Positions 33,541-34,218 of a stretch of DNA of 39,954 bases are shown here, piece by piece (the stretch's first letter is position 1; the number at the start of each line of letters is the position of its first letter). The notes below the pieces were generated by a model, which made no database searches, was not told the origin of the DNA, and saw only the letters and a list, made by a program, of their open reading frames with translations. Made by a program: the position numbers and the translations under genes. This DNA comes from a virus, in IMG/VR virus record IMGVR_UViG_3300020436_001609, positions 1 through 39,954 of that record; one strand, 5' to 3'.

Positions 33541-33569
33541 ATCATATAGAAAGAAGGGTACTTTGTCAA
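33541..33569 (-). promoter_or_regulatory. sigma70-like promoter for DUF3310-gp45-gp44 operon, leaderless type
   Basis: TTGACA at 33569-33564, 17 nt, TATGAT at 33546-33541, 7 nt, ATG at 33533. The -35 is the loop of the hairpin at 33552-33579, so the same DNA ends one transcript and starts the next. Confidence 0.7.
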
Positions 33570-33579
33570 GTACCCTTCT
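33552..33579 (-). terminator. hairpin after hsp20 with TTGACAAA loop
   Basis: A perfect 10-bp stem (AGAAGGGTAC / GTACCCTTCT) with loop TTGACAAA begins 14 nt after the hsp20 stop and is followed by TTCTATAT on the transcript. The T tract is short, so termination may be partial. The loop is identical to that of the terminator at 1551-1576 and contains the -35 of the next promoter. Confidence 0.6.
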
Positions 33580-33592
33580 ATATTTTTTAGGA

Positions 33593-34030
33593 TTATTTGA
33601 CTTCAATGATCCTAGGCTTCTTCTCTTCTGGAACAATACGTTCAAGTTCTACAGTAAGCATACCGTTTTCAAGTTTTGCGCCGTTAACTACAATATCTTC
33701 TGATAATGTAAATTTACGATCAAACTTACGATAAGAAATACCACGATAAAGATTATCTTTATCTTCTTCTTTCTTATCTGAACGAACAGAAAGCGTACCA
33801 TCAGAAACTTCTACTTCGATATCATCTTTACCGAAGCCCGCTAATGCCATCTCTATGACATAGTTATAGTCACCTTCCTTCCGAATGTTATAAGGCGGGA
33901 ACCCTGTAGATTGAGAATTATTATCAACATATCTGGTTAGATTATCGAATACACGATCAAACCCAACAGCGTAGGGCGTAAGTTTATTGAAGTGATCATT
34001 GAATAAAGTCATTGCGTTGGTAGTAACCAT
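33593..34030 (-). CDS. hsp20: small heat-shock protein Hsp20 (alpha-crystallin family)
   Basis: A 145-residue IbpA-like chaperone. The N-terminal arm (FNDHFNKLTPYAVGFDRVFD) is typical of bacterial IbpA. It is followed by the alpha-crystallin domain with MALAGFGKDDIEVEVSDGTL, YRKFDRKFTL and the hallmark AKLENGMLTVEL, then the C-terminal I-I-E-V motif. It holds unfolding proteins, perhaps during capsid assembly or host stress; Hsp20 is a common marine T4-like gene. AGGAGA lies 6 nt before the ATG and is predicted to be masked by a ROSE-like hairpin. Confidence 0.93.
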   Translation of the reverse strand: MVTTNAMTLFNDHFNKLTPYAVGFDRVFDNLTRYVDNNSQSTGFPPYNIRKEGDYNYVIEMALAGFGKDDIEVEVSDGTLSVRSDKKEEDKDNLYRGISYRKFDRKFTLSEDIVVNGAKLENGMLTVELERIVPEEKKPRIIEVK

Positions 34031-34183
34031 TTTAAATCTCCTTTATAAAGCAAGACTGCTATGCATCCCCTAAGGCGATGCGGTTAAATGGTGGTTTTTT
34101 AGTCTATCTCTAAGAGCCTTGACTATACGGTAAAAACCACCTAAAAATCCGTTTTTGAAGGACTTATGAATTGCCTTTCTATA
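34031..34183 (-). promoter_or_regulatory. ROSE-like RNA thermometer in the hsp20 5' leader
   Basis: The leader of about 150 nt has three stem-loops in transcript order. The first is a long arm pairing 34131-34141 with 34090-34100 (11 bp, GGTGGTTTTTA type). The second is GCATC/GATGC (34063-34081). The third is an SD-masking hairpin at 34057-34035, where UUGCU (34053-34049) faces AGGA (34042-34039) across the loop UUAUAA with one G left unpaired, extended by C-G, U-A, G-U and A-U pairs. UUGCU opposite AGGA with a bulged G is the defining feature of ROSE thermometers, which control hsp20 genes of alpha- and gammaproteobacteria. Function is inferred from structure. Confidence 0.65.
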
Positions 34184-34189
34184 CTATTA

Positions 34190-34218
34190 TATATAACAAT
34201 TATTAGCTAAAATGTCAA
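34190..34218 (-). promoter_or_regulatory. sigma70-like promoter for hsp20
   Basis: TTGACA at 34218-34213, 17 nt, TATATA at 34195-34190; an alternative TATAAT lies at 34191-34186. It initiates the structured hsp20 leader and lies just after the sulfotransferase stop, so hsp20 is separable from the accessory island. Confidence 0.7.

Follow-up and report, generated by a model that had tools for sequence, protein, structure and literature searches.

The hsp20 gene of a T4-like phage is preceded by a leader whose last 60 nt or so (34089-34028, minus strand) are likely to function as a two-hairpin ROSE-like RNA thermometer. This element lies in a stretch of viral DNA of 39,954 nt, hereafter the window (positions 1 to 39,954 of IMG/VR virus record IMGVR_UViG_3300020436_001609), and, with the same good probability, it represents a marine subfamily common to T4-like phages, other marine phages, and SAR11-type bacteria. 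The ROSE-like core exists in the window, is conserved and covaries among relatives, is specific to hsp20, and has a bacterial counterpart. A preliminary description of the window had interpreted the leader as a thermometer. This interpretation is retained for the core, its covariation, its host type, and the predicted closure of the Shine-Dalgarno (SD) sequence; it does not extend to the leader as a whole, and no Rfam match to the window was obtained.

The gene itself (33593..34030, minus strand, start codon at 34030) encodes a complete Hsp20 of 145 aa of the IbpA type (Pfam PF00011, E 5e-20), with an arginine at the position of Arg93 of IbpA. Thus, as expected of a ROSE element, the leader is followed by a small heat-shock gene. 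The neighboring genes encode DUF3310, the gp45 sliding clamp, the gp44 clamp loader, RegA, and a family B DNA polymerase, which identifies the window as a T4-like phage. Upstream of the leader, a sigma70-type promoter (34190..34218, minus strand, inside TATATATAAT) carries a -35 box TTGACA (34218-34213) and a -10 box TATATA (34195-34190) separated by a 17-bp spacer. The preliminary description had located TTGCT (34053-34049) and AGGA (34042-34039) exactly, and the hsp20 leader does have its own sigma70-type promoter on the minus strand. Of 31 unique leaders of close relatives that contain the RNA module described below, 25 have a promoter of the TTG-N-TATATA type 5' of it, 17 bp being the commonest spacer. 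Besides, a perfect 12/12 extended sigma70-type promoter (TTGACA-18-TATAAT plus TG, 34462-34433) is located within a sulfotransferase-like open reading frame upstream of hsp20. Immediately 3' of hsp20, a hairpin of 12 bp resembles an intrinsic terminator (33552..33579, minus strand) and overlaps TTGACA, the -35 box of an 11/12 promoter serving the DUF3310 gene (33579-33541).

Two ROSE-type hairpins are formed on the minus strand just before the start codon. Hairpin A (34063..34081), GCAUC-G-CC UUAG GG-GAUGC, contains a bulged G and is supported by covariation. Hairpin B (34036..34056), GUCUU-G-CUU UAUA AAGGAGAU, is the proposed thermosensing hairpin and is supported by conservation, by covariation, and by the covariance model R1 presented below. 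In hairpin B, UUGCU (34053-34049) faces AGGA (34042-34039) of the SD sequence AAGGAG (34038..34043), and G 34051 is bulged, which corresponds to the core of ROSE elements. With hairpins A and B, both conserved with covariation, the 5' untranslated region also falls within the two to four hairpins typical of these elements. The earlier view of three stem-loops in the leader is only partly right: the leader begins with a 5' hairpin, continues with an H-type pseudoknot in which another hairpin is nested, and ends with the two ROSE-type hairpins. The full leader folds better than its shuffled versions (z -2.28). Hairpin B alone is weak at 37 °C (-3.2 kcal/mol) and behaves like shuffles (z 0.25); it is therefore unremarkable in one genome, where a claim would rest on the motif. 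Folding energy alone was hence set aside as an uninformative test of hairpin B.

The comparison of leaders is more telling. In 80 IMG/VR loci encoding a relative of the Hsp20 of the window, nearly all leaders carry UCUUGCUU, a variable loop, and AAGGAGA. Variants include CUCGCUU, as well as CCUUGCUU together with AAGGAGG, a combination that retains the pairing, and the loop between the motif and the SD sequence varies in both length and sequence. The same arrangement is observed in 15 cultured or named phages, including the Pelagibacter phages Mosig, HTVC008M, HTVC103P, and HTVC115P, the Methylophilales phage Melnitz, phage C48C1, and cyanophages such as S-PM2, P-SSM4, and Syn33. Overall, all 126 unique hsp20 leaders of related marine phage contigs contain U(U/C)GCU with an SD sequence after it, a count that leaves out the loci found via a motif search. 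On the same contigs, it precedes 5 of 1074 other open reading frames of at least 100 aa, or 5 of the 350 that bear an SD sequence. Hairpin B is thus not a chance pairing, and the UUGCU/AGGA interaction with one bulged G, proposed from the window, stands both in its sequence and in 126/126 relatives. Both variants known from the literature, UUGCU and UCGCU, occur among the phage leaders. Related hsp20 genes were retrieved in 508 records of the phage collection. DNA-level similarity searches against named phages gave almost no matches, which indicates that the leaders are conserved in structure more than in sequence.

Covariation among homologous leaders, put forward beforehand as a check on the thermometer, is extensive. 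A first MAFFT alignment displaced the SD sequence because of the variable loop. A covariance model comprising hairpins A and B (R1) was built from 62 phage leaders, and 76 matches were realigned to it to address this displacement. In these 76 sequences, all eight pairs of hairpin A show changes on both sides, with 95.7% of cells paired, and three pairs of hairpin B show double-sided changes despite the constraint exerted by the SD sequence. For the two hairpins together, 11 of 16 pairs are changed on both sides, 88.1% of cells are paired vs. 50.7-59.4% when the partners are slid by one to three columns, and the covariation score is 0.524 vs. 0.229 after shuffling. As the realignment is fitted to the structure, these figures lean toward it, and the argument is carried by the slid controls and the raw leaders. 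In the window, which is among the training sequences, R1 matches 34089-34028 with 58.1 bits (E 2.9e-12), and the next match is at chance level (E 0.81). The model also recovered hsp20 leaders outside its training set (for example, L099, L104, L125, L164, and L196).

The element is not restricted to phages. When 84,980 species genomes of bacteria and archaea were scanned, 80 loci were retrieved (L229-L308), mostly from SAR11, with some from other marine alphaproteobacteria and SAR324, and all 76 unique hsp20 leaders among them contain U(U/C)GCU. R1, trained on phages only, matches the hsp20 leaders of SAR11 and other alphaproteobacteria with E values from 6e-13 to 1e-5, gives a weak match on SAR324 leaders (E 0.09), and does not match E. 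coli ibpA. At the whole-genome level and with strict filters, R1 was found in 36 of 60 SAR11-family genomes (completeness not given), nearly always once, and in none of 149 other genomes drawn from the same phylum. Most of the hsp20 leaders of SAR11, SAR324, and other marine bacteria are unrecognized by the Rfam ROSE models. Because leaders from SAR11 and other marine alphaproteobacteria match the phage-trained model, the element is of host type, as had been suggested for a sensor carried by this virus. These bacterial leaders resemble those of phages in having the two hairpins and the motif. They differ in that no 5' hairpin-pseudoknot module was seen in them and in their promoter, which is mostly sigma32-like: the CTTGAA type is present in 55 of 79 bacterial leaders vs. 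13 of 141 phage leaders. A T4-late-type ATAAATA is found in 62 of the 141 phage leaders. A description of these bacterial leaders as ROSE elements was not found in the literature searched.

In a tree of Hsp20 proteins made from 149 columns and containing some long branches, the phage proteins form several groups among bacteria. Five changes between phages and bacteria are required, at least two of them forced by well-supported branches, and a single origin of phage hsp20 is therefore unsupported. We infer that hsp20 and its ROSE leader have been exchanged as a unit more than once between phages and bacteria, the promoter being replaced.

The predicted temperature behavior of the window agrees with a thermometer but is no proof of it. 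With ViennaRNA and the full leader, the mean unpaired probability of the SD sequence rises from 0.15 at 15 °C and 0.18 at 20 °C, through 0.28 at 30 °C and 0.40 at 37 °C, to 0.57 at 47 °C. Hence, the SD sequence is predicted to be mostly paired at 15-20 °C and to open with heat, in line with the preliminary description. At 20 °C, the mean is 0.31 over 131 hsp20 leaders vs. 0.56 over 150 other SD-bearing genes. The average of the hsp20 set shifts little with temperature (0.29 to 0.41), the predicted opening is gradual, and some relatives, such as Melnitz and HTVC008M, are largely open or flat; ViennaRNA does not model non-canonical pairs, to which the melting of ROSE elements is ascribed. This gradual opening, and the weak energy of hairpin B, would also suit a constitutive structure that occludes the SD sequence or stabilizes the mRNA and so tunes hsp20 expression without sensing, all the more as the stable hairpin A and the 5' hairpin and pseudoknot could protect the mRNA. 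We consider this explanation improbable. Indeed, an occluding structure that does not sense needs no specific U(U/C)GCU with a bulged G, yet the motif is found in 126/126 phage and 76/76 bacterial leaders and stays while the intervening loop varies in length and sequence.

According to the thermometer model, hairpin A would be a stable scaffold and hairpin B would keep the SD sequence closed against UUGCU with its bulged G. Warming, or misfolded protein withdrawing bound Hsp20, would open hairpin B and allow ribosomes to start. In bacteria, the element is mostly placed behind a sigma32-like heat-shock promoter; the phage has a promoter of sigma70 or T4-late type in its place and retains the translational lock, so that hsp20 mRNA would be made during infection and translated on demand. 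Opening of the SD sequence by temperature, release by misfolding, and the timing in infection are the inferred parts of this scheme.

The nature of the trigger deserves attention. In E. coli, IbpA represses its own translation via the 5' untranslated region; for this activity, Arg93 is indispensable and position 34 has to be aromatic (PMC10474464). Of 73 phage proteins, 72, among them that of the window, have the corresponding arginine, and position 34 is Tyr or Phe in 73/73; IbpB has Gln at the Arg93 position. In view of this conservation, protein misfolding during infection has to be taken seriously as a trigger acting at constant sea temperature, either instead of heat or in addition to it, and the signal may be misfolded protein rather than the temperature of the sea. 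It is thus conceivable, at somewhat less than even chances, that the same RNA primarily senses aggregates. In that case, Hsp20 of the phage or of its host would bind the leader and repress translation at constant temperature, and misfolded proteins of the infection would titrate Hsp20 away and so relieve the repression. A scheme of this kind has been proposed for E. coli IbpA. Binding of Hsp20 to the leader is putative, however, and the conservation of Arg93 may be plain inheritance, since the residue is common to alpha- and gammaproteobacterial IbpA (PMC10474464). Aggregate sensing is also compatible with temperature sensing by the same hairpin.

Upstream of the ROSE-like element, the leader of the window is of another kind. 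On the minus strand, hairpin P1 (34157..34179) exposes a conserved 12-nt loop, CARUUCRUAAGU (34173-34162). It is followed by a pseudoknot in which stem S1 (34127..34152), formed by ACGG (34152-34149) and CCGU (34130-34127), encloses the 5' strand of stem S2 (34090..34141), formed by GGUGGUUUUU (34141-34132) and AAAAACCACC (34099-34090). Loop 1 is U-rich and loop 3 is A-rich; in the window and in some relatives only, a hairpin AGUC...GACU (34101..34124) is nested in loop 3. The stem of P1 varies yet stays paired, and its loop is nearly invariant. In relatives, both S1 and S2 are formed by sequences that are quite different and yet complementary. Since S1 was misaligned between groups in alignment A5, shuffles were used as the control for the pseudoknot, the finder itself requiring complementarity. 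The window scores 35 vs. 14.7 in shuffles, none of 60 reaching this value. Over 89 unique modules, the best pseudoknot has a mean score of 32.4 vs. 17.1 in dinucleotide shuffles, and in 53 modules, that of the window among them, the observed score is above those of all 60 shuffles. In these 89 modules, loop 1 is 66% U, and the junction side of S2 is UUU/AAA or GUU/AAC in 62. Telomerase and SAM-II pseudoknots, with their U-A-U triple helix, likewise combine a U-rich loop 1 with adjacent U-A pairs in S2, and by analogy the phage pseudoknot is a candidate for such a triple helix. The leader of T4 gene 32 holds a pseudoknot as well. The module shares with telomerase and SAM-II pseudoknots the H-type fold and the U-rich loop 1. 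It differs from them and from that of gene 32 in its position before hsp20 or DUF3310-gp45 and in having no Rfam match: Rfam models gave no hit at the cut-off on the 5' module, only low scores at chance level. In locus L012, two such pseudoknots, as judged by eye, apparently occur in tandem upstream of hsp20.

The core sequence of P1 has 119 matches in IMG/VR, with hsp20 just downstream in 100. Most matches lacking hsp20 are coincidences in protein-coding sequence, so that the P1 core was rejected as a general element of other genes. Four are real and two are cut by contig ends. The four real ones (L162, L171, L187, and L209) carry the module directly before DUF3310, followed in three of the four by a gp45-like open reading frame; in L162, hsp20 with its ROSE element is located elsewhere, apart from the DUF3310 module. 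In many relatives, a T4-late-type promoter is inserted between the module and the ROSE element, and in some S2 is followed by a T run. The module (34179-34090 in the window; also in L113, L121, L125, L162, L171, L187, L209, and others) often possesses a T4-late-type promoter of its own together with a T run behind S2, an arrangement expected of a separate small RNA. In ten loci (L113, L123, L126, L185, L186, L191, L196, L210, L213, and L220), though not in the window, a conserved insert CUGGUCCAUUGGYCUU...GGGUGAGRCCUACCWCYACC resembles another structured RNA; where its surroundings were read, it separates the module from the ROSE leader.

Because the module is present before DUF3310-gp45 without hsp20, and because a late-type promoter often separates it from the ROSE element, it is a separate phage RNA element, placed in the clade of the window on the predicted hsp20 transcript. 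The idea that the whole leader of about 150 nt is one thermometer was consequently abandoned: its 5' half is this module, which occurs without hsp20, and ROSE occurs without it. Alternatively, the leader could be united as a single regulatory RNA whose 5' hairpin and pseudoknot would respond to a ligand or phage protein and control access to the ROSE element or transcription readthrough. Several features would fit, namely the presence of both parts on one predicted transcript in the clade of the window, no further promoter having been seen in between, the strong selection on the pseudoknot, the hsp20 gene following 100/119 core matches, and the terminator-like T run after S2 in some relatives. 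Nevertheless, this is unlikely in view of the four DUF3310-gp45 loci, of the many phage leaders and all the bacterial leaders examined that have ROSE without the module, and of the late-type promoter separating the two in many phages. A looser association can be envisaged, more tentatively than the thermometer itself. The leader might be a composite one for a chaperone, where a host-type ROSE lock reports misfolding or heat and, in this clade, a phage-specific RNA, which can also head the DUF3310-gp45 replication operon, adds a second regulatory input; this RNA, with its conserved-loop hairpin and triple-helix-type pseudoknot, might itself be a sensor or might exist as a small RNA apart from the leader.

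A ROSE-like element thus stands before every marine phage hsp20 examined (126 unique leaders, cultured phages included). Such conservation suggests that chaperone synthesis during infection is under translational control by heat or protein misfolding, and that the virus keeps the translational control of its host while using its own transcriptional control. The Arg93 result makes heat vs. misfolding sensing by phages directly testable. The hsp20 genes of SAR11 carry the same element, and a structured RNA module absent from Rfam is revealed at a phage replication operon.

How does this element relate to known thermometers? Searched with RF00435, RF01832, and RF02523, the window gives no match at E<=10, a curated model being an indicator of membership rather than its definition. 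Below its cut-off of 43 bits, RF02523 (ROSE_3) nonetheless falls exactly on hsp20 leaders of relatives: Melnitz (34.1 bits, E 0.0025) and C48C1 (26.8 bits), the phage loci L195 (32.2), L214 (27.8), and L125 (24.2), and, among bacteria, L302 (23.6) and the gammaproteobacterial L304 (34.6). The similarity to ROSE initially claimed is hence upheld in part, through these relatives and not through the window itself. For these reasons, we term the element ROSE-like, a marine subfamily near ROSE_3 and outside existing Rfam families.

RNA thermometers of phages are known in lambda cIII, SP-beta blyA, and a Caudoviricetes sigma70 gene, and few had been counted by 2024 (PMC11182007). These likewise act in phage mRNA, on other genes, none being on hsp20 according to the same paper. 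Two articles on cyanophage small heat-shock proteins (PMC3827213, PMC5028025) mention neither thermometers, nor hairpins, nor untranslated regions, and a survey of Pelagibacter structured RNAs (PMC2704228) mentions neither ROSE elements nor hsp. No cyanophage or Pelagibacter thermometer was found in the literature searched, and priority is uncertain, as most subscription journals and bioRxiv were outside its scope.

The literature regards U(U/C)GCU as the hallmark of ROSE thermometers (PMC3669281, PMC11182007). The rhizobial and E. coli ibpA ROSE elements (RF00435, RF01832) have in common with the phage leader U(U/C)GCU opposite the SD sequence, a multi-hairpin leader, and a small heat-shock gene. 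They are nevertheless distinct, as neither model matches the window and R1 misses E. coli ibpA. The closest parallel is the short ROSE-like thermometer of Pseudomonas ibpA (PMC3669281). Like the phage element, it precedes a small heat-shock gene and comprises two hairpins in about 60 nt, of which the first is stable and the second sets U(U/C)GCU against the SD sequence. Hairpin B (-3.2 kcal/mol) is weaker than the Pseudomonas ROSE hairpins (-4.1 to -7.6 kcal/mol; PMC3669281). Compared with this element and with RF02523, hairpin A of phages has a conserved bulged-G CC/GG core and the thermosensing hairpin is A/U-rich. Finally, unlike the Pseudomonas element, the phage version is borne by a virus, is placed behind a phage promoter, and carries an additional 5' module.
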